42,785 bases of DNA from assembly GCA_030656555.1 (NCBI GenBank), contig JAUSPN010000033.1, positions 1 to 42,785 of the forward strand, written 5' to 3'. Under the pieces are notes generated by a model. It had not been told where the DNA came from and made no database searches. It worked only from the letters and a program-made list of their open reading frames with translations. Shown here piece after piece: positions 6,158-42,176 of this stretch. The position numbers were made by a program, and so were the translations under genes. Within the stretch, counting starts at the first letter, position 1. The number at the start of each line of letters is the position of its first letter. The stretch comes from Candidatus Desulfaltia sp. Lineage in GTDB: Bacteria; Desulfobacterota; Desulfobacteria; Desulfobacterales; ETH-SRB1.

Positions 6158-8050
6158 ATGAAATTCAGACCACTTTATAAAAACTTCTTTGTTATTCTAA
6201 TAATAGATATTTTTCTCTTGACCGGCTCTTTATATGCCGCCCACCTTGTGCGATTTGATTTTGTTATTGATGGTAAAACATTACAGACATTCAAGAAGAT
6301 ATTGCCTTTTATATTGATAACCAAGTTTGTCTGTTTTTATTTCTTTGACCTGTATCGCGGCATGTGGCGCTATACAAGCATTGCCGATCTGATAAATATC
6401 ATCAAGGCATCAACCATAGCCTCTCTCCTTATTATCAGTATTATTCTTTTAAAAACCAGGTTTGAAGGCTTTGCCCGTTCGGTTTTTATTATTGACTGGT
6501 GTTTCACGATTCTTTTTATTTCCGCATTCAGGCTGATCGTCCGTTTGTATTTTGAGCATTTCGGCAATGATAAATTCTGGAAAGTTATAAAACAGAATCT
6601 TTTGACCCCCTTTATAAAAAAAGTATCGAGCAGAAAGAGGCTGCTTATTATCGGCGCCGGCGACTGCGCGGAAAAGATATTCAGAGAACTAAGGGATAAT
6701 GCGCGGCTTAAGTATAATGTGGTTGGATTCCTTGACGATAATCCTGTTAAGATCGGCAAAAAGATCCACGGCATTGCGGTGCTTGGTTGCATAAAAGATA
6801 TCAAGACAGTTGTAAGGCAGGCAGGGGTTCATGAAATCCTTATAGCAATTTCGTCAGCCACCTCAAACCAGATGCGAACCATTGTGGCTCATTGCAAGAA
6901 AAGCGGTATCGCATTTAAGACCGTGCCCGGCATGGGAGAGCTGATTGACGGCAGGGTGACAATAAACGCGATTCGAGAGGTAGCATACAGAGACCTGCTG
7001 GGACGAGAAGCAGTCGTACTGGACGAAGAACAGATAGGCGCTCACATTGGGGGGCAACATGTTATGGTGACCGGCGCGGGCGGTTCTATCGGTTCTGAAC
7101 TTTGCAGGCAGATTTGCCGGTTTCGACCAAAACTGGTTATGCTTTATGATATAGCCGAAAGCCCGTTGTATGAAATTGAACTGGAGCTTAAACAGAGTTT
7201 CAGCAATGTAATAGTTGTGCCTGTGCTGGCAAATATTCAGGATAAACATGAGCTTGAAAAAGCAATTGAAGATTACAAACCACAGATAATTTTTCATGCC
7301 GCTGCATACAAGCATGTGCCAATGCTTGAGCTGCAACCCTGGAAGGCTGTTGATAACAATATTGTGGGCAGCGCAAATCTGATGGATGCTGCAAAAAAAT
7401 TTAATGTTAAGCGGTTTGTTTTTGTGTCAACCGACAAAGCGGTAAGACCGACAAATGTCATGGGCGCTTCAAAGCGGGTGGCTGAAATGCTGGTGCAGAG
7501 TCATAATGGATTGAGCACATCCGCGACACAATTTATTATTGTTCGCTTTGGCAATGTTATTGGAAGTGTCGGAAGCGTGGTGCCTCTTTTCAAAAAGCAG
7601 ATAGCAAAAGGCGGACCTGTTACAGTTACTCATCCTGATGTTACCCGCTATTTTATGACTATTCCGGAAGCAAGCCAGCTTATTTTGCAGGCCGGCGCCA
7701 TGGGCAATGGAGGAGAAATATTGCTGCTGAACATGGGTGTGCCGATTAAGATTGACGACATGGCAAGAGATCTGATCCGTCTTTCCGGATTTGAGCCTGA
7801 TGAGGATATCATGATTGATTATATCGGGCTCAGGCCTGGAGAAAAACTTTATGAGGAATTGATTACCGAAGGAGAGGGCATTATCCCGACAAAGCATAAA
7901 AAGATTATGGTTCTTAAGGGAAACGGATACGATCAGACGATTTTAAATAATAAAATAAACGAATTGATCAAGCTTGCCAAAGATCAGGATGATAAAGGCA
8001 TAAAGACGAAATTGCAGGAGATTGTGCCGGAATATAAACCGCAGTTTTGA
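6158..8050 (+). CDS. Membrane-bound nucleotide-sugar 4,6-dehydratase/epimerase (FlaA1/WbpM/CapD family)
   Basis: 630 residues. The N-terminal third has about four membrane helices. A CoA-binding-like Rossmann domain follows (LLIIGAGDCAEKIFREL, near 165-180), then the catalytic extended-SDR domain with NAD(P) motif GAGGSIG (306-312), VSTDKA (423-428) and NVMGASKR (M435, K439). This is the long WbpM/CapD form, which makes 4-keto-6-deoxy intermediates from UDP-N-acetylhexosamines for O-antigen, capsule or exopolysaccharide. The usual catalytic tyrosine of the YxxxK motif is a methionine here, a feature known in WbpM-type large dehydratases. The exact substrate is not predictable. It belongs with the sugar transferase and ElyC genes as an envelope polysaccharide set. 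Confidence 0.92.
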   Translation: MKFRPLYKNFFVILIIDIFLLTGSLYAAHLVRFDFVIDGKTLQTFKKILPFILITKFVCFYFFDLYRGMWRYTSIADLINIIKASTIASLLIISIILLKTRFEGFARSVFIIDWCFTILFISAFRLIVRLYFEHFGNDKFWKVIKQNLLTPFIKKVSSRKRLLIIGAGDCAEKIFRELRDNARLKYNVVGFLDDNPVKIGKKIHGIAVLGCIKDIKTVVRQAGVHEILIAISSATSNQMRTIVAHCKKSGIAFKTVPGMGELIDGRVTINAIREVAYRDLLGREAVVLDEEQIGAHIGGQHVMVTGAGGSIGSELCRQICRFRPKLVMLYDIAESPLYEIELELKQSFSNVIVVPVLANIQDKHELEKAIEDYKPQIIFHAAAYKHVPMLELQPWKAVDNNIVGSANLMDAAKKFNVKRFVFVSTDKAVRPTNVMGASKRVAEMLVQSHNGLSTSATQFIIVRFGNVIGSVGSVVPLFKKQIAKGGPVTVTHPDVTRYFMTIPEASQLILQAGAMGNGGEILLLNMGVPIKIDDMARDLIRLSGFEPDEDIMIDYIGLRPGEKLYEELITEGEGIIPTKHKKIMVLKGNGYDQTILNNKINELIKLAKDQDDKGIKTKLQEIVPEYKPQF

Positions 8051-8129
8051 ATGGGGATTAGGGGATTGGAATGCTGGAATATTGGAATGAACCCTGAACC
8101 GTGAACCCTGAACGGTCAAGTAGGTTATA

Positions 8130-8170
8130 AGCCATGATCACGGGTTGTTGCCATGACCATGGCTTTTTAT
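8130..8170 (+). terminator. Putative Rho-independent terminator after the nucleotide-sugar dehydratase
   Basis: Arms AGCCATG (8130-8136) and CATGGCT (8158-8164) are followed by a T-rich tract (8164-8174). The loop is long (21 bases) and contains a further CCATG copy, so an alternative shorter hairpin is possible. It sits 80 bases after the gene and just before the oppositely oriented tRNA. Confidence 0.5.
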
Positions 8171-8193
8171 TTTTCACTTCAGGCACTTTTTTG

Positions 8194-8270
<77 letters not shown>

Positions 8271-8533
8271 AAAACTTTTTTGACAAGATTAACAGGATAT
8301 AAAAAACTAAGATACTAACAAATATTATTTTTTATGTCTATCAAAATTTTTACGAAATATGTTAAGTATTAGGTGCTAAGTGCTAAGAGCTTTATAAAAC
8401 AAACAATTATTTTCATTGACATGTTTTGTTTAAATTGAGATTTTTATTAGATCTTTATTGATAAACTTCTTTGAACCGCAAAAGCGAATGACAAAACTCA
8501 AAGGTTTCACAAGGTAAAACATCAGCGCTTAAA

Positions 8534-9433
8534 ATGAATATTGATAAAAAAGAAAAGAAAGAAAAAACCGCCGGCAACTCTCTTGTCAAGTTTGATCCTC
8601 TTCAGCGATATCTATTTGATATAGGCAAATACAAGCTGTTAACCCGGGAGCAGGAAAGAGAGCTTGGAATAAGGGTCCAGGAACATGATGATGCGGAAGC
8701 GGCTTATGCTTTAGTGACTTCAAACCTCAGGCTTGTTGTAAAGATAGCTTTGGATTTTCAGCGTGTATGGATGCAGAATCTTTTAGATCTGATCCAGGAG
8801 GGAAATATAGGGCTTATGCAGGCTGTAAGAAAATTTGATCCTTACAAGAATGTTAAGTTCTCATATTATGCCTCTTTCTGGATAAAGGCATATATCCTCA
8901 AATTTATCATGGATAACTGGCGTCTTGTGAAAATCGGTACCACGCAAGGGCAGCGAAAACTTTTTTTTAAGTTAAAAAAGGAAAAACAAAAACTGATCGA
9001 AGAGGGTTTTGACCCAAAACCAAAGTTGCTTTCTGAAAGATTGGGTGTATCTGAGCGGGAAATTGTGGATATGGACCAGCGGCTTGATGGCTGGGATATA
9101 TCTCTGGATGCTCCCTTAAAAGATGATACAGATACGGAAAGGATAGAGATTCTGAAGATGCCGTCCGACTCTATGGAAGAAGGGGTGGCAAAGAAGGAAA
9201 TAAAATCGCTTCTTAGTAATAAAATTGCCGGGTTCAGAAAAAAATTGACGAAAAGAGAGCTCGAAATATTTGATTTGCGCATTTTTTCAGATTCACCTGT
9301 TACTCTGCAGGAAATCGGTGACCGTTATGGCATATCAAGGGAGCGCGTCCGCCAGGTTGAAAAGAATGTAATAAATAAAATAAAGGAATATTTTAAGCAG
9401 GAACTACCTGACTTTAAATCTTATATTGATTAA
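8534..9433 (+). CDS. rpoH: RNA polymerase sigma factor, RpoH (sigma-32) type
   Basis: 299 residues of the sigma70 family lacking region 1.1. Regions 1.2-2.4 run from about 20 to 135, with the core-binding segment LLDLIQEGNIGLMQAVRKFDP (83-103) and the -10 recognition and melting segment SYYASFWIKAYILKFIMDNW. The RpoH-box-like sequence QRKLFFKL lies at 140-147 and the helix-turn-helix of region 4.2 near 255-285 (TLQEIGDRYGISRERVRQVEK). The RpoH box makes a heat-shock-type sigma factor the best reading. The lysine-rich N-terminus is extended. Its stop codon TAA lies inside a GATTAAGGG repeat that follows directly. Confidence 0.9.
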   Translation: MNIDKKEKKEKTAGNSLVKFDPLQRYLFDIGKYKLLTREQERELGIRVQEHDDAEAAYALVTSNLRLVVKIALDFQRVWMQNLLDLIQEGNIGLMQAVRKFDPYKNVKFSYYASFWIKAYILKFIMDNWRLVKIGTTQGQRKLFFKLKKEKQKLIEEGFDPKPKLLSERLGVSEREIVDMDQRLDGWDISLDAPLKDDTDTERIEILKMPSDSMEEGVAKKEIKSLLSNKIAGFRKKLTKRELEIFDLRIFSDSPVTLQEIGDRYGISRERVRQVEKNVINKIKEYFKQELPDFKSYID

Positions 9434-9515
9434 GGGATTAAGGGATTGGGGGATTAAGGATAATTTTGAATGTTGAATTTTGAATGCTGAATGAAAATAA
9501 ATAGAAACAGAAATC
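9433..9515 (+). repeat. 83-bp direct repeat, copy 1 (copy 2 at 9666-9748)
   Basis: The two copies are 233 bases apart and differ at one base. Each starts with an AGGGATTAAGGG run and continues with TTTGAATGTTGAATTTTG phrases. The gap 9434-9810 holds only these copies, the 150-base repeat at 9504-9652 and the 42-base segment at 9761-9802. I see no gene in it. Confidence 0.9.
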
Positions 9516-9652
9516 AGAGGTCAGATGCCAGAGGTCGGAAAAACAGCAACCCTGAACCTTTGTTTCTCATTTAGTATTTATTTTTTCATTCGATTTTAGA
9601 ATAATTTGAGGAGCAAAGCGACATCATTATTCGATGTTGGATGTTCATCTTT
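9504..9652 (+). repeat. Dispersed ~150-bp repeat, copy 1 (copy 2 at 18207-18376)
   Basis: The first ~130 bases match copy 2 with only about three differences. The two copies then differ in the number of TTCGATG/TTCGACG units, with copy 2 about 20 bases longer. It contains no convincing frame and does not resemble a known insertion sequence. Confidence 0.85.
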
Positions 9653-9665
9653 CAAAATAGGGGTC

Positions 9666-9748
9666 AGGGATTAAGGGATTGGGGGATTAAGGATAATTTT
9701 GAATGTTGAATTTTGAATGCTGAATGAAAATAAATAGAAACAAAAATC
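9666..9748 (+). repeat. 83-bp direct repeat, copy 2
   Basis: Matches 9433-9515 at 82 of 83 bases. Together the two copies bracket the 150-bp dispersed repeat, as a local duplication or recombination would leave them. Confidence 0.9.
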
Positions 9749-9760
9749 GGAGATTGGTGG

Positions 9761-9802
9761 ATTAATTTTTTCGTGTTCTTCGTGGTGAAATATATATGGA
9801 AA
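9761..9802 (+). repeat. 42-bp segment shared with 5210-5251
   Basis: Matches 40 of 42 bases of the segment upstream of the ElyC-like gene. It ends 8 bases before the TPR lipoprotein start and supplies its 5' region (GGAAACAGG before the ATG). Confidence 0.75.
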
Positions 9803-9810
9803 CAGGATAA

Positions 9811-11514
9811 ATGAGAGCTTATTTTTTAAAACCGATCCTTTGTTTTATGGTTGTCTTGTTATCTTCAGGCTGCGCTTTGCATATTAAGACAGTAGAGCCG
9901 GTTGCAAAAAAGCCGCCCGACACATATAAATCTGATGGATCCTATTATTACTATGTAGAGTCGCAGCTGCAAAGGAGAATGGGCAACCCGGATAACGCTG
10001 TTTCATGTCTCAGAAAAGCAATAGAAAGGGATCCGGATTCTTCATATTTGCGAGGAGAGCTCGCCGATCTTTATTTTATCCTTAAAGAAAAAGAAAAAGC
10101 ATTAAGCGTCATAGAAGAGGCGCTGAAAAAAGATCCTGAAAATATTGCAATCCTTATTATGTATGGAAGGATAAAGCAGGATTTAAAACATATTAATGAT
10201 GCGGAAAAAGCATATAAAAAGATTATTGCCGCTGATCCAAAACAGAAAAACACCTATTTATTGCTTGGCGGTCTTTATATTGAAGAAGGCAACCTCGCTG
10301 AAGCTTTGCAGGTATATGAGCGCCTTATTGAAAATTTTCCAGGTTTCTATGCAGGCCATTTTTTTATGGGAAAGATTTATGCAGAGCAGGGGAATCTGTT
10401 AAATGCTGAAAGAGAATTCAAAAAAACATTAGAGCTCAAACCCGAACTTGAAGAACCGCAATTTGAATTGATAAATCTGTATAAAAAGACAGGAAAGGAT
10501 GAAAGTATTATTCAGATATGCAAGGATATCCTGGAGAGAAATCCAAAAAACATATCGGCTGCCATTGAGCTTGGCTATTATTATTACAAAAACGGGATGC
10601 AAGAGGAATCTGAAAAATTATTAAAGGAGCTTGGCGCAAAGAGTTTATCTGATACAGATATTATAGCTGAGGTTGTTCAGATATATCTGGATAAAAAGAA
10701 ATATGACGAAGCTTTGATTGTTTTAAATGGCATGTTAAAAGGCGCTCCTGACAGCTCAGATATAAATTATGTTATGGGCGCAGTTTGTGATGGTAAGGAA
10801 GATAATACGGCAGCCATCATGTATTTTAAAAAGGTGATACCTGATTCAAGGTTTTATAAGAATGCTGTTATTAATATTGCCTTTTTATACCAGAAGCAGG
10901 GAAAGATTAAGGATGCTATAATTTATTTAAATGATATTATTAAAAGTAATCCTGACGATCCTGAGCTTATGCTCTATCTCGGCACATTTTATGAGGAGAT
11001 CAAAGAATATGAAAACGCGGAAAAAACGCTTAAACGGGCTCTTGAAATCGATTTAGATAACAGCAAGCTCCATTTTCGTTTGGGCATTGTTTATGACAAG
11101 TGGGGCAGAAAAGATGATTCGATAAAAGAGATGAAGGCCGCGATAAGTCTTGATCCGAAAAACGCCAACGCATTGAACTATCTTGGCTATACTTATGCTG
11201 ATTTGGGAGAAAATCTTGATGAGGCGGAACGTCTAATCAAAGAGGCATTAAAACACAAGCCTGACGACGGCTACATTATAGACAGCCTTGGATGGGTATA
11301 TTTTAAAAAAGGGGATTTCAAAAAGGCGCTGAAATATCTGGAAAAGGCGGTCGATCTGGTTTCTGATGATCCTGTTATACTGGAGCACCTTGGAGATGCC
11401 TACATGAAAACAGACAACAGGGCAAATGCTCTTAAATTTTACAAGCAGTCTCTTTTAAATAAAAAAGATGATAAAACAGGTCTTGAAAAGAAGATACAGG
11501 AGTTAATGCGTTAG
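9811..11514 (+). CDS. TPR-repeat outer-envelope lipoprotein
   Basis: 567 residues. The N-terminus is a lipoprotein signal ending LLSSGC (C21 as the acylated residue). The rest is a chain of tetratricopeptide repeats from about residue 45 to the C-terminus, with clear units such as NPDNAVSCLRKAIERDPDSSYLRGELADLYF, GNLLNAEREFKKTLELKPELEEP and GDFKKALKYLEKAVDLVSDDPVILEHLGDAYMK. Such proteins are scaffolds for protein assemblies in the periplasm. Here a large helical superhelix anchored to a membrane is expected. The following gene is a DUF4292-like lipoprotein, and similar TPR/DUF4292 pairs suggest a shared outer-membrane job, though that pairing is inferred. Its stop codon TAG lies in a GTTAGGTGTTAAG phrase. 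Confidence 0.9.
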   Translation: MRAYFLKPILCFMVVLLSSGCALHIKTVEPVAKKPPDTYKSDGSYYYYVESQLQRRMGNPDNAVSCLRKAIERDPDSSYLRGELADLYFILKEKEKALSVIEEALKKDPENIAILIMYGRIKQDLKHINDAEKAYKKIIAADPKQKNTYLLLGGLYIEEGNLAEALQVYERLIENFPGFYAGHFFMGKIYAEQGNLLNAEREFKKTLELKPELEEPQFELINLYKKTGKDESIIQICKDILERNPKNISAAIELGYYYYKNGMQEESEKLLKELGAKSLSDTDIIAEVVQIYLDKKKYDEALIVLNGMLKGAPDSSDINYVMGAVCDGKEDNTAAIMYFKKVIPDSRFYKNAVINIAFLYQKQGKIKDAIIYLNDIIKSNPDDPELMLYLGTFYEEIKEYENAEKTLKRALEIDLDNSKLHFRLGIVYDKWGRKDDSIKEMKAAISLDPKNANALNYLGYTYADLGENLDEAERLIKEALKHKPDDGYIIDSLGWVYFKKGDFKKALKYLEKAVDLVSDDPVILEHLGDAYMKTDNRANALKFYKQSLLNKKDDKTGLEKKIQELMR

Positions 11515-11557
11515 GTGTTAAGTGTGTTAAGAGCAAGCGGATGAAAGGATTATGGAT

Positions 11558-11762
11558 TTCACCGCTGAGACGCAAAGAACGCAAAGGTTAAAGATTTTTT
11601 GTTTTCCGTTGAGAGGACGGAAAACAAAAAGAAACTCATTATTAAGATTATCATATCAAAGATATATTGTATTTAGTTGAACAGCTTAGTTTTCAAATTG
11701 TCGCCTCTCACGACAATTTGAAAAATTAAACGTCTCTGCGTTCTCTGCGACTCTGCGGTGAA
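11558..11762 (+). mobile_element. MITE-like element, copy A: terminal inverted repeats and two hairpins with complementary loops
   Basis: The left end (TTCACCGCTGAGACGC, from 11558) and right end (ending GACTCTGCGGTGAA at 11762) are inverted repeats of about 30 bases with some mismatches. Inside are hairpin 1 (arms 11596-11609 and 11617-11630, 14 bp, loop TGAGAGG) and hairpin 2 (arms 11690-11703 and 11711-11724, 14 bp, loop CCTCTCA). The loops are exact reverse complements. There is no coding frame. A further ~48 bases after the right end (to 11810) are also shared with copy B. The gap 11515-11810 contains nothing else I can name. Confidence 0.75.
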
Positions 11763-11810
11763 TAAAAAATATATAAATGCTAAGGCGATAAGGCGCCAGA
11801 TAAAACAAAA

Positions 11811-12602
11811 ATGCGATATACGATTATTATTCTTTTTGCTGCTGTTTTTCTTCTTTCTGCCTGCGCCGGAATTTCAGGGGTGGCTTCTAAAAAAGCATCG
11901 GTTTCCGAAGATTTACATGAAGCTGCAAACCTGCTTTTATCTCTGAAAAATAAAAACAATGGGTTGAAAACATTCAAGGGCGCTGGGAAGGTCACGTTTT
12001 GGGGAAAAGGTAAAAAAGGGCTTATTTCCAATATTGCATGGGTCGGATCAGAGCCTGATAAAATCAGGTTTGCAATGCGCAGCCTTTCCGGACAGCCGGT
12101 TGTCACCCTTGCATGCGACGGCACGTGGTTGTATTTTTTATCGCATATGGATGAGCAGCGTTTTTATAAAAAACCTTCCAAAAATTCCACCCTGAAACAA
12201 TTCATTTCAATCCCGATCAAATCCAGCGACATTGTTTCGATTTTAGCCGGCCAAATCCCGGTTGCTGAACATGATTCCGCAATAATTAAAAAAAACAGAT
12301 CTAAAGATGGATACGTCATTATTTTAAAAAAGGATTGGGAGAATGTTATTGAGATGATATACCTTGATGAAACCAGAACAACTGTGCGAAAAATCGAGAT
12401 GTTTGATCTAAGCGGCTTATTATTGTACAGGGCAGAGTTCGCCGGCATGCAAAATATTAACGGCTATCTTGTTCCATCGCGGCTTTTTTTTTCAGGCGCA
12501 AATGGAGACAGCTTTCATCTTGATATCAACAGATACTGGGCAGATGTTTCAATTTTGCCGTCAGTATTTGTTTTGACTCCACAGAAAGGAATTGGGGATT
12601 AG
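11811..12602 (+). CDS. DUF4292/LolB-like lipoprotein
   Basis: 263 residues with a lipoprotein signal MRYTIIILFAAVFLLSAC (C18 acylated) followed by a soluble domain with LKTFKGAGKVTFWGKGKKGLISNIAWVGSEPDKIRFAMRS and DGTWLYFLS. This is the strand pattern of DUF4292/LolB-like beta-barrel-half proteins that carry lipids or lipoproteins across the periplasm. A localisation-factor role is possible but unproven. It follows the TPR lipoprotein and is bracketed by the two copies of the MITE-like element, so its 5' region is made of element-linked sequence. No strong ribosome site is seen before ATG 11811. Its stop is in a GGATTAG phrase. Confidence 0.72.
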   Translation: MRYTIIILFAAVFLLSACAGISGVASKKASVSEDLHEAANLLLSLKNKNNGLKTFKGAGKVTFWGKGKKGLISNIAWVGSEPDKIRFAMRSLSGQPVVTLACDGTWLYFLSHMDEQRFYKKPSKNSTLKQFISIPIKSSDIVSILAGQIPVAEHDSAIIKKNRSKDGYVIILKKDWENVIEMIYLDETRTTVRKIEMFDLSGLLLYRAEFAGMQNINGYLVPSRLFFSGANGDSFHLDINRYWADVSILPSVFVLTPQKGIGD

Positions 12603-12606
12603 AAAT

Positions 12607-12851
12607 TTCACCGCGGAGACGCAGAGAACGCAAAGGTTAAAGGTTTTTTGTTTTCCGTTGAGAGGACGGAAAACAAAAAGAAACTCATTGTTAAGATTGA
12701 TGAACTCGTAAAGTCGAAAGTCGAGTCACTCCCAAGATTATCATTCGAAAATATATTGTATTTAGTTAAACAGCTTGGTTTTTAAATTGTCGCCTCTCAC
12801 GACAATTTAAAAAATTAAACGTCTCTGCGTTCTCTGCGACTCTGCGGTGAA
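12607..12851 (+). mobile_element. MITE-like element, copy B (with a 41-bp internal insertion)
   Basis: Same layout as copy A. The terminal inverted repeats start TTCACCGCGGAGACGC at 12607 and end at 12851. Hairpin 1 has arms 12645-12658 and 12666-12679 with loop TGAGAGG. Hairpin 2 has arms 12779-12792 and 12800-12813 with loop CCTCTCA. Hairpin 2 differs from copy A by a paired C-G to T-A change, so the stem is kept. A 41-base block at 12699-12739 is absent from copy A. The gap 12603-12908 holds only this element and a shared ~48-base 3' flank. Confidence 0.75.
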
Positions 12852-12908
12852 TAAAAAATATATAAATGCTAAGGCGATAAGTCGCCTAATAAAACAAAAA
12901 GGCCAAAC

Positions 12909-14069
12909 TTGAGCAATAAAAATACGCCGAATATTATAAGGGATGCCTTAAATAAGCGTGAAACAGAAACCATGTCGCATATGGCAACGCTTAGCTCTCA
13001 TGGCTTGCGACGTCTGCAGGAAGATCGTTTGAAGGGCGGATATCGCCAGGCTTTTTCTGTGGATGTTGATCGCATTCTTCATTCTCTCGCATATACACGA
13101 TATATCGATAAAACCCAGGTCTTTTATCTTATTAAAAACGATCACATTACACACAGGGTACTTCATGTTCAGCTTGTATCAAAAATTGCCAGGACTATCG
13201 GACGTTTTTTGGGATTAAACGAGGATCTTATCGAGGCAATAGCCCTTGGTCATGATATCGGCCACCCGCCTTTTGGACATGATGGCGAAAGGTTTTTGTC
13301 CGAACTTTGCAGAGCGTGCAATATTGGACATTTCGTGCACAGCGTTCAGAGCGTTCAGTTTTTAGACAGTGTCGAGCGCAAAGGAAAAGGATGGAATTTG
13401 TGTCTTCAAACCCTTGACGGGATACTGTGCCATGACGGCGAAATACATGATCAAACGCTTGAACCTGAAAGGAATAAGGCCTTTGATAAATTGGATAAAG
13501 AGACAGCCCTGAAAAAAACTGACCCAGGGATCCAATTAATGCCGATGACCATGGAAGGATGTATTGTACGGATGGCGGATACAATAAGTTATATTGGACG
13601 TGATATTGAGGATGCCATCCGGCTGAACATAATTAAAAGGGCTGACATTCCGGATGAAAGCGTAAAACTGCTCGGGGATACAAACGGTACAATCGTATAT
13701 AATCTTGTAACCGATATTATTGAAAACAGCTTTAAGAAGAACTGTATCGCCTTTAGCGGGGAAATGTCAGGCGCTTTGAAAAGGTTAAAAGATTTCAATC
13801 TTGAACATATCTATTTCAATCCAAAGATTAAAAGGCATTCGCATGTTATAAAAAGACTTTTTGAAATTCTTTTTGAAAGATATTTAAAAGATATTGAAAA
13901 AGAAAATCACTCTTCAGTGATATTTACACGTTTTTTAAAAGATATGTCTGAAGAATATATTAACAATCATTGCAAAGAGGAAATTGTCAGGGATTTTATC
14001 GCCGGTATGACAGATCAGTATTTTTTGAGACAGTCGCCGCAGGATGAAGGATTAGGGATTAAGGATTAG
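12909..14069 (+). CDS. dgt: dGTPase-like HD-domain triphosphohydrolase
   Basis: 386 residues. It carries the conserved N-terminal block IRDALNKRETETMSHMATLS, the HD-domain residues THR (H82) and GHDIGHPPFGHDGE (H115, D116), and a later D (RMADTISYIGRDIED) for metal binding. The family hydrolyses dNTPs to nucleoside and triphosphate, controlling dNTP pools. Length and architecture match the dGTPase-like type 2/3 proteins. The start is TTG at 12909. The first ATG (12972) would cut the conserved N-terminal block, and an AAAAAGG ribosome site lies upstream. The last residues (EGLGIKD) and the stop are encoded by a GATTAGGGATTAAGG repeat, so the C-terminus has probably been altered by repeat insertion. 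Confidence 0.88.
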   Translation: MSNKNTPNIIRDALNKRETETMSHMATLSSHGLRRLQEDRLKGGYRQAFSVDVDRILHSLAYTRYIDKTQVFYLIKNDHITHRVLHVQLVSKIARTIGRFLGLNEDLIEAIALGHDIGHPPFGHDGERFLSELCRACNIGHFVHSVQSVQFLDSVERKGKGWNLCLQTLDGILCHDGEIHDQTLEPERNKAFDKLDKETALKKTDPGIQLMPMTMEGCIVRMADTISYIGRDIEDAIRLNIIKRADIPDESVKLLGDTNGTIVYNLVTDIIENSFKKNCIAFSGEMSGALKRLKDFNLEHIYFNPKIKRHSHVIKRLFEILFERYLKDIEKENHSSVIFTRFLKDMSEEYINNHCKEEIVRDFIAGMTDQYFLRQSPQDEGLGIKD

Positions 14070-31664: not shown

Positions 31665-33143
31665 ATGCCTCTTCGAATTTACAATACATTAAAAAGAAAA
31701 AAGGAGCTGTTTAAACCTGTCGAAAACGGCAGGGTAAGCATGTATGTTTGCGGCCCCACTGTTTATGATTCCTGTCACATAGGACATGCCAGGTCTGTTG
31801 TGACATTTGATGTTATAGCCCGCTATTTTAAAGAAAAAGGCTATGATGTAACCTATGTAAGAAATTTTACAGACATTGATGACAAAATAATCAACAGGGC
31901 CAATGAGCTTGGCATCGCCCCATTAACACTTGCAGAAAAATATATCAGTGAATTCCATGATGATATGGAAGCTCTGAATGTTGAAAGAGCTACAATTGAG
32001 CCGAGAGCCACTGAGCATATTGACAGTATAATAAAAGTTATTGAAATATTGATTGAGAAAGGCTTTGCATACATAATAGACGGCGATGTCTATTATGCGG
32101 TCGAGTTATTTAAAGACTATGGAAAACTTTCCGGGCGCAAGCTAAAGGATATGGAGGCAGGCGCAAGGGTGGATATTGACAAAAGGAAACACAATCCTTT
32201 TGATTTTGCTTTATGGAAATCGTCAAAGCCTGGAGAACCGGTCTGGGACAGCCCATGGGGCGGGGGCAGGCCCGGATGGCACATTGAATGTTCGGCCATG
32301 AGCGCCGAATATTTAGGGGAAACCTTTGATATCCATGGCGGAGGGAAAGATCTTATTTTTCCGCATCATGAAAATGAAATAGCCCAGTCAGAGGCCGCAT
32401 TTGGGAAAACTTTTGTAAGATACTGGATTCATAATGGTTTTGTGAATATTAATCAGGAAAAAATGTCAAAATCGCTTGGAAACTTTATCGTACTAAAAGA
32501 GATGATAAAGCATTATCATCCTGAAGCATTGCGGCTTTTTCTTCTTTCAAAGCATTATCGCAGCCCTGTTGACTTTACAGATAAAGCAATGGATGACGCT
32601 GTTGCCGGTCTTGATAAAATTTATGCGCTGCTTGAGCGTATTGAAAAACAATTCGGACCTGCATCAGGCCAGGATAAAACTCTCGATGCCACTGTGTTTT
32701 GGGGGCAATTCTGTAAAGCTATGGATGATGATTTCAATACCGCCCTTGGAATAGCCACGCTTTTTGAAGCTGTTCGCAGTATAAACCGTCTGCTCGATGA
32801 ACCGCAAAAGCGAACGCATTCCCCGCAGCTTCAAAACAAAAACAGCTTTCCTCAAGACGCTGAAGACAAAGTACACTCGGGTCGGGCAATTATCCTGAAA
32901 ATGGGCGCAATTTTAGGCATACTTAATGAATCACCTGAAGAATATTTTGTAAAAAAAAGATCTGCGGAACTTGAAAAAAAAACGATCGATTCTGAAATGA
33001 TTGACAAGATGATAATGGAGCGGATTGAGGCCAGAAAGGCAAAAAACTGGGCCATGGCCGATCAAATCAGAAAACAGCTCGAAGAAATGAATATAATTAT
33101 TGAAGATCGTCCCGAAGGCACAGTCTGGAAGGTGAAAAACTGA
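31665..33143 (+). CDS. cysS: Cysteinyl-tRNA synthetase
   Basis: 492 residues, class I synthetase. The zinc cysteine C29 lies in MYVCGPTVYD, the HIGH motif at 38-41 (HIGHARS), GWHIECSAMSAEYLG and FPHHENEIAQSEA supply the other zinc ligands, and KMSKS is at 266-270. The C-terminal helical domain is present. It charges tRNA-Cys. It is flanked by repeat-filled spacers, so its operon context is unclear. Confidence 0.97.
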   Translation: MPLRIYNTLKRKKELFKPVENGRVSMYVCGPTVYDSCHIGHARSVVTFDVIARYFKEKGYDVTYVRNFTDIDDKIINRANELGIAPLTLAEKYISEFHDDMEALNVERATIEPRATEHIDSIIKVIEILIEKGFAYIIDGDVYYAVELFKDYGKLSGRKLKDMEAGARVDIDKRKHNPFDFALWKSSKPGEPVWDSPWGGGRPGWHIECSAMSAEYLGETFDIHGGGKDLIFPHHENEIAQSEAAFGKTFVRYWIHNGFVNINQEKMSKSLGNFIVLKEMIKHYHPEALRLFLLSKHYRSPVDFTDKAMDDAVAGLDKIYALLERIEKQFGPASGQDKTLDATVFWGQFCKAMDDDFNTALGIATLFEAVRSINRLLDEPQKRTHSPQLQNKNSFPQDAEDKVHSGRAIILKMGAILGILNESPEEYFVKKRSAELEKKTIDSEMIDKMIMERIEARKAKNWAMADQIRKQLEEMNIIIEDRPEGTVWKVKN

Positions 33144-41313: not shown

Positions 41314-41476
41314 AATTATCTATCAATATTTGATTCGCACGGTCAAGGGATTTATAGGAGAGAGTACATGATATCATATATCTGATTCTCGGTTTACAGG
41401 GTTTTTTTGTGATTATTAGATTCTTGCTTTTTTATTCATCAGCATGCTATTTTAATATAAAAGGAGTTGTGAAAAA

Positions 41477-41662
41477 ATGACGGAAAAACATATTGCTGAT
41501 TGTCCAGCCTGCGGTAACGAACTGATTATAAAAAAAACGTGACGACGTGTTTACTTAACCTGCAAGTTTTGCGGGACAGAGTATCCTATAGAAAAGCTTG
41601 CTGATTTGATAAACGATTCTTTTGAGGAACAGGTTGCGAACACACGTTGTGACAGGTTATAA
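41477..41662 (+). CDS. Probable small dual-CxxC selenoprotein (in-frame TGA at 41540-41542)
   Basis: The 61-codon frame starts at ATG 41477, ten bases after AAAGGAG. It reads MTEKHIADCPACGNELIIKKT, then TGA, then RRVYLTCKFCGTEYPIEKL and on to a TAA at 41660-41662. The two CxxC motifs (C9-C12 and C29-C32) lie on opposite sides of the TGA at codon 22 and would form one zinc-ribbon-like or redox unit, so a stop at 22 would leave half a domain. A stem-loop at 41552-41583 fits a bacterial SECIS. I recall small dual-CxxC (seleno)proteins from related bacteria, but could not search. The alternative is a nonsense-mutated gene. The 3' end overlaps the exonuclease start. Confidence 0.7.
41543..41583 (+). 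promoter_or_regulatory. SECIS-like stem-loop downstream of the in-frame TGA
   Basis: The upper stem CCTGCAA (41559-41565) pairs with TTGCGGG (41569-41575) with one G-U pair. The apical loop GTT has a G in first place, and 23 bases separate the TGA from the loop. A lower stem TACTT (41552-41556) pairs with GAGTA (41579-41583). Loop G, stem length and spacing agree with the known bacterial SECIS rules (loop about 16-37 bases after TGA). Confidence 0.55.
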
Positions 41663-42176
41663 ATCAATAAATCGGTATGTAGCACTGGATGTGGAAACAA
41701 CCGGCCTTTCGCCCAAAAGCGGGGACAGGGTGATAGAGATCGGCGCTGTTGCTATCGAGAACCAGTGCATTATTGCCAAATTCAGCAGCCTTATCGATGT
41801 TGATAAAATGATCCCCTGGCAAGCTCAGAAGGTACACGGCATAACCAATGAAATGCTATATGGTGAACCAAAGCCGGATGAGGTCCTGCCGGAGTTTTAC
41901 AAATTCATTGCCGGAAGCATCCTGGTAGCCCACAATGCAAGCTTTGATATTGGATTTTTAACAAATGAATTTGCTTTATTAGGCATGAGTCTGAACAATC
42001 GATTTCTGTGCACACTAAAAATGAGCAGAAAGCTATATCCGCATCTGCCCAATCATAAACTGGAAACAGTGAGCCAATACCTGCTTGGAAAATCATGCAA
42101 ACAGATGCAAAGACACCGCGCCCTTGATGACGCAAAACTTGCAGCCATGATATGGCTTGAGATGGAAAAGATATAA
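41634..42176 (+). CDS. DEDDh 3'-5' exonuclease, DnaQ/PolC epsilon-like
   Basis: About 180 residues. The three exonuclease motifs are clear: VALDVETTG (D, E), SILVAHNASFDIGFL (D) and MQRHRALDDAKLAAM (H, D), giving the DEDDh type of DNA polymerase III epsilon-like enzymes. It is short and stand-alone, so a proofreading subunit or repair/RNA nuclease are both possible. The start is taken as TTG 41634, 5 bases after a GAGGA site. Other in-frame starts are TTG 41622 and GTG 41649. The first 29 bases overlap the selenoprotein gene, and the stop TAA abuts the next ATG, so the three genes form one tight operon. Confidence 0.88.
   Translation: MRTHVVTGYKSINRYVALDVETTGLSPKSGDRVIEIGAVAIENQCIIAKFSSLIDVDKMIPWQAQKVHGITNEMLYGEPKPDEVLPEFYKFIAGSILVAHNASFDIGFLTNEFALLGMSLNNRFLCTLKMSRKLYPHLPNHKLETVSQYLLGKSCKQMQRHRALDDAKLAAMIWLEMEKI

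Follow-up and report, generated by a model that had tools for sequence, protein, structure and literature searches.

How is the in-frame UGA of a 61-codon gene near the end of a 42,785-nucleotide contig of Candidatus Desulfaltia sp. (the window, here meaning the whole stretch of DNA that was analysed) read: as selenocysteine, as cysteine, or as a stop? The gene lies at 41477..41662 on the forward strand, from its ATG (41477) to its TAA stop (41660-41662), and is preceded by a ribosome-binding site, AAAGGAG (41460..41466), that also precedes the orthologue in the sister genome G004. The translated frame 41477-41662(+) is MTEKHIADCPACGNELIIKKT-UGA-RRVYLTCKFCGTEYPIEKLADLINDSFEEQVANTRCDRL-stop. 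The UGA, a putative selenocysteine codon, is codon 22 (41540..41542). It falls between a first CxxC at residues 9-12 (41501..41512; Cys9 and Cys12, predicted metal ligands) and a second at residues 29-32 (41561..41572; Cys29 and Cys32), and Sec22 is not part of a CxxU pair. The protein ends in Cys58-Asp-Arg-Leu (41648..41659). The sequence-only reading of this DNA, which had described a 61-codon frame with an AAAGGAG site and one TGA at codon 22 between two CxxC motifs, was exact in these respects. The full two-CxxC pattern matched once in the window and in 0 of 100 shuffles, and the own genome carries a single copy of the gene. We conclude from sequence comparison that the UGA is in all probability read as selenocysteine (probability about 0.93), which would yield a 61-residue selenoprotein.

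A DnaQ-type 3'-5' exonuclease frame (41622..42176, forward strand; possible starts TTG 41634 and GTG 41649) overlaps the 3' end of the gene, beginning inside it (41622-41662). Because of this overlap, translation of the exonuclease could depend on ribosomes that pass the UGA.

With C in place of U, the read-through protein scored 69.2 bits against NCBIfam NF041197.2 (E 2.5e-19; cut-off 40), while Pfam returned no family at its cut-off for the 61 residues. The gene is a member of NF041197, "dual CXXC motif small (seleno)protein," also called OS_HP3, with which it shares the two CxxC motifs, the Sec between them, the length, and a score over the cut-off. The selenoprotein reading is not new, since the family is already catalogued. 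The available portion of a 2026 review (PMC13188914) lists NF041197 as OS_HP3 with the motif RxU, and cites for it its reference 60 (Nucleic Acids Res 35:4952), which is Zhang and Gladyshev 2007 according to the part available of a 2022 review (PMC9312934). The window protein differs from the family as presented in that portion of the 2026 review in having KxU, not RxU, before the Sec, and we found no other difference from that description. A literature search judged by title found no functional study of OS_HP3/NF041197. The window thus brings a further, well-supported member to a selenoprotein family that is catalogued but uncharacterised.

The family also contains a subfamily whose small dual-CxxC proteins show a GRU context, lack the C-terminal CDRL, and have the TGA as well (loci L049, L050, L057, L114, L115, and L118, in genomes G006, G007, G030, G064, G079, and G088). 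We considered this subfamily as a new family and rejected the idea, since three of four tested sequences, with C for U, passed the NF041197 cut-off. It may correspond to "hypothetical protein DW," which the deep-Sep paper (PMC12013277), in the sections available, reports from two Desulfosarcina strains; the same sections state that the new selenoproteins, DW included, have a number of Cys homologues. The 2026 review, as far as its available text goes, files DW under NF041197 too, with the motif GxU, and the GRU context fits this motif.

We examined the conservation of the TGA in a profile search of 144 genomes, comprising the own genome and relatives. NF041197 matches were present in 97 of these genomes and exceeded the cut-off in 88, of which 85, the own genome included, had one internal TGA at the same column. 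The three exceptions were G104, which has Cys, G129, which has Trp (TGG), and G005, whose gene lacks the 5' half. In the G129 member (L021 1501-1653), with TGG at the Sec codon, the leading Cys of the first CxxC is missing too, and we take this form to reflect decay or a sequencing error. In addition, a degenerate DNA pattern with TGN at codon 22 recovered at least 118 stretches from GTDB contigs; among the matches listed, codon 22 was TGA in 115, TGC in 2, and TGT in 1. The sequence-only reading had staked its claim on homologues that have Sec or Cys at position 22, and such homologues exist. By submitters' titles, 90 of the 119 rows (the window plus the matches listed) were Thermodesulfobacteriota, and another 20 were titled Deltaproteobacteria and filed under Myxococcota in the search resource. 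The three Cys forms among the matches listed came from one Succiniclasticum and two Desulfovibrio records, their scarcity being a property of the sampled sequences. The same pattern found no match in viral contigs, and a single-protein scan of genome contigs found no relative. Because the same TGA occurs in many separate genomes, a sequencing error at 41540-41542 is very unlikely. In the genomes examined, family members without Sec are few, which suggests a chemistry that Cys does poorly.

Several of these figures depend on how the sequences were found. The TGN, recoding, wobble, hairpin, and Cys-form counts come from the pattern-found loci (the Cys-form comparison adds G104), and L012, L065, L091, L048, and L051-L054 lie outside them; among these profile-found loci, L048 is not a clear family member and L051-L054 have no match. 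The invariance of Cys9, Cys12, Cys29, Cys32, Leu16, Glu50, and Arg60 is partly circular, as the pattern required these residues, and the profile-found (HMM) alignment is independent of those requirements. Relatives commonly end in Asp/Asn-Arg-Leu/Ile/Phe, an ending that in the pattern-found set was partly imposed by the pattern itself, which demanded the Arg and the class of the final residue. Residue 58 is variable among relatives, with V, I, L, M, A, or T instead of Cys. The 53-column family tree is poorly resolved and served for organism names alone.

The gene can be lost. Congeners G001, G002, and G003 (85 to 93% complete) had no family match, G006 has only a distant GRU paralogue, and G005 has lost the 5' half. 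Decay of the window gene itself, with the UGA a plain stop and the second half dead or of use only for starting the exonuclease, would agree with the retention of the exonuclease in G005 beside its truncated gene, with the absence of a match in three of six congeners, and with a dN/dS of about 0.45 to the nearest relative, G004 (52 codons). The values for five other relatives were 0.15 to 0.34 (52 codons). However, the relatives found with the HMM conserve the part of the protein that follows the TGA, and the G004 gene is intact even though most of the adjoining exonuclease has been deleted there. Together with the selection on the hairpin described below, this makes decay exceedingly improbable.

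Bacterial SECIS elements are hairpins that follow the UGA on its 3' side and have a G among the first two loop bases. The window has such a hairpin at 41559..41575 on the forward strand, bases 17 to 33 after the UGA. Its stem pairs 41559-41564 with 41570-41575 (six pairs), and its loop, 41565-41569 (AGUUU), carries the conserved G at 41566, so that both position and loop fit the bacterial type. The second CxxC is encoded inside the hairpin, which fixes wobble bases there.

We aligned this segment in 115 distinct TGA sequences, including the window, from among the matches listed. Paired cells made up 93.6% of the total versus 87.8% in shuffled alignments, cells changed on both sides numbered 40 versus 8.8, and the covariation score was 0.298 versus 0.191; none of these values was reached by any of 500 shuffles. 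Sliding the partner strand by 1 to 3 columns lowered pairing to 18 to 55%, and RNAalifold recovered five of the six pairs unaided. The compensatory changes were confined to the two outer pairs, with the four inner pairs varying on one side or not at all. There was no excess in the number of pairs with a change on both sides (494 of 500 shuffles reached the value) or in further pair types (82 of 500).

The wobble positions point the same way, in counts and a P value that treat related sequences as independent: among the matches listed, the third base of codon 30 was G in 114 of 115 sequences versus 298 of 881 other Arg/Lys codons (P 4e-47), AGG was used in 78 of 89 Arg codons at this position versus 81 of 574 elsewhere in these genes, and TGC encoded Cys29 in 111 and Cys32 in 106 of 115 versus 243 of 351 other Cys. 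Codon 30 reads AAA, CAG, CGT, and GGA in four Cys forms, three of which have thus lost the G; all six hairpin pairs still form in two of the four. Compared with synonymous recodings, the hairpin segment had a mean z of -1.06 over the 115 sequences from the matches listed, only 19 of which singly beat recoding at the 5% level, versus means of -0.33 to +0.06 for four other segments of the gene.

For the window alone, the segment gave a z of -2.6 (3 of 200 recodings folded as well). Three window stretches folded singly gave z values of -1.9 (8 of 200 shuffles as good), -1.2 (25 of 200), and -1.0 (29 of 200); for the longest, 41530-41610, the minimum-energy fold did not contain the hairpin. Thus, the SECIS-like hairpin that had been noted after the TGA is present, modest as a single sequence and backed in its pairs and wobble G by the alignment, from which the SECIS constraints (the wobble G and the covarying outer stem) can be read. 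From these comparisons, SelB carrying Sec-tRNA-Sec would bind this hairpin, which closely follows codon 22, and the UGA would then be translated as selenocysteine and not as a stop.

The genes for this decoding are all present in the own genome, an assembly of 107 contigs that is 100% complete and 0.12% contaminated. Profile searches identified selA (620 bits), two selB genes over the cut-off (380 and 303 bits), selD (381 bits), which has its own TGA in GSG-U-ASK, and two tRNA-Sec-type genes (75.9 and 52.5 bits), both with the anticodon UCA. Each of selA, selB, selC, and selD is on another contig than the window, in which Rfam at gathering scores found one tRNA and nothing else. Among the 144 genomes, selA was found in 138 and a tRNA-Sec over the cut-off in 122; since they occur nearly everywhere, co-occurrence with the family has little power. 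The proposal that the TGA is read as Sec, which had come with the advice to look for selA to selD in the same genome, is thus supported by the conserved TGA column, the selected hairpin, the wobble G, and the four sel genes.

The second UCA tRNA raises the question of cysteine. It lies on contig C31 of the own genome (G000:C31 = L039 4036-4127; 52.5 bits), and a second SelB gene (SelB*, L039 4159-6081) starts 31 bases after it. The tRNA begins AGGGGCAA and ends TTGCCCCT-T-CCA; with stems assigned by eye, it has an 8-bp acceptor with A1:U72, then U73, and a bulged A in its 4-bp T-stem. A selC* tRNA-Cys with these features, followed downstream by a second SelB (selB*), is reported from Desulfobacterales in the available part of PMC7609411, which attributes the selC* tRNA-Cys/SelB* opal system to Mukai et al. 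2017 and describes the gene order selC*-selB*-cysS*, where cysS* is a CysRS without the anticodon-binding domain. The C31 locus resembles the system as described there in its opal anticodon, A1:U72, U73, bulged T-stem, and downstream selB*, but differs from it in having no cysS*. We did not find cysS* elsewhere in the own genome either, where the CysRS matches over the cut-off were the standard enzyme (window 31671-33134) and a cysteinyl-tRNA synthetase fused to a PLP-dependent enzyme that looks cysteine synthase-like by eye (L238 1483-3771, reverse strand). Further, the own CysRS as a tblastn query (E 1e-10) had no match in the loci of 20 relatives, several of which are ended by contig ends. 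UGA may have three meanings in this organism.

A tRNA of the selC* build with its own SelB, of a kind reported from the same order in the part of PMC7609411 available, could in principle read codon 22 as Cys, or as either Sec or Cys by selenium supply. Against this, the selenoprotein gene of sister G004 (97% complete) still has its TGA and the same stem in a genome without the selC*/SelB* system, where we found one SelB (E 1e-40) and a single tRNA-Sec over the cut-off. Likewise, 35 of the 85 TGA genomes have a single SelB (E 1e-40) and none of the confirmed selC*/SelB* pairs, and 9 have a pair; the check for pairs covered 20 relatives' loci, and in G104 a SelB* fragment escapes the SelB count. 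The own genome also has no detected cysS*. Sec is much likelier than Cys for this codon, because G004 keeps the TGA yet shows only the canonical SelB/tRNA-Sec pair, and we regard decoding by the selC*-type tRNA as very improbable. Decoding as Sec or Cys according to selenium supply, taken separately, is a shade less probable again; if true, one gene would give rise to two chemically different proteins, the genome having two separate sets of UGA-decoding genes.

The surroundings of the opal tRNA are partly shared with relatives. A UCA tRNA stands beside a SelB*-like gene in 15 of the 20 relatives' loci (L241-L252 and L254-L256), and in G007 (L244) identical copies of the opal tRNA at 9926-10017 and 12252-12343 flank the SelB* gene. 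On C31, formate dehydrogenase-like genes (by eye) lie upstream of the tRNA, and positions 6205-13101 hold an HGD-D dehydratase subunit, a BadF-type ATPase, a TusA-domain protein, a sulphur transporter, and selD (Pfam; selD by profile). The dehydratase subunit and the ATPase likewise follow SelB* in G007 and G032.

To return to the selenoprotein itself, we modelled its structure from a 78-row alignment (the window and 77 of the 118 loci from the matches listed). The model, of medium confidence, had a mean pLDDT of 70 and a pTM of 0.46, with strands at 15-20, 25-29, and 35-37 and a helix at 38-53; pLDDT was 83 to 86 at residues 11-40 and 48 to 57 at residues 41-61. Sec22 sits in the turn between the first two modelled strands, apart from the four Cys. 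The top Foldseek matches in the PDB were zinc-ribbon subunits of RNA polymerase III (E 0.03), with no match under E 0.001, and profile matches included 2jrp_A (E 1e-5) and HypA (E 9e-4). The CxxC - hairpin - CxxC order and the modelled fold are like those of the RNA polymerase III subunit zinc ribbons, 2jrp, and 2jne (yfgJ), although those proteins are without Sec. As these matches are weak (Foldseek E 0.03; 2jrp and 2jne profile E 1e-5 and 1e-3), they speak for likeness of fold and not for membership.

We consider it quite probable that the protein is zinc-ribbon-like. The model shows the two Cys knuckles and the hairpin that joins them; a single metal ion would be bound between Cys9/Cys12 and Cys29/Cys32, Sec22 would stand at the hairpin tip away from the metal, and a helix and then a tail with Cys58 would follow the hairpin, the last third being poorly modelled. 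The product could be a small cytosolic protein with an exposed selenol for redox or for metal or electrophile chemistry, and we would give even odds to redox over metal or electrophile binding. Cys58 might perhaps be the partner thiol of the selenol, although many family members are without it. The protein is small enough for expression and assay.

Upstream of the gene, on the opposite strand, is a malate dehydrogenase gene. We surveyed neighbourhoods within about 4 kb at the window and at least 118 pattern-found loci, and no gene partner was constant across lineages among the matches listed. We read the recurring neighbourhoods as synteny rather than partnership. The clusters found near the gene among the matches listed included TruA (tRNA pseudouridine synthase; 43), S4/RNA pseudouridylate synthase (33), and ArgJ (30), for each of which one representative was checked with Pfam, other clusters being named by eye. 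An outer-membrane efflux protein cluster adjoins the gene in six loci among the matches listed.
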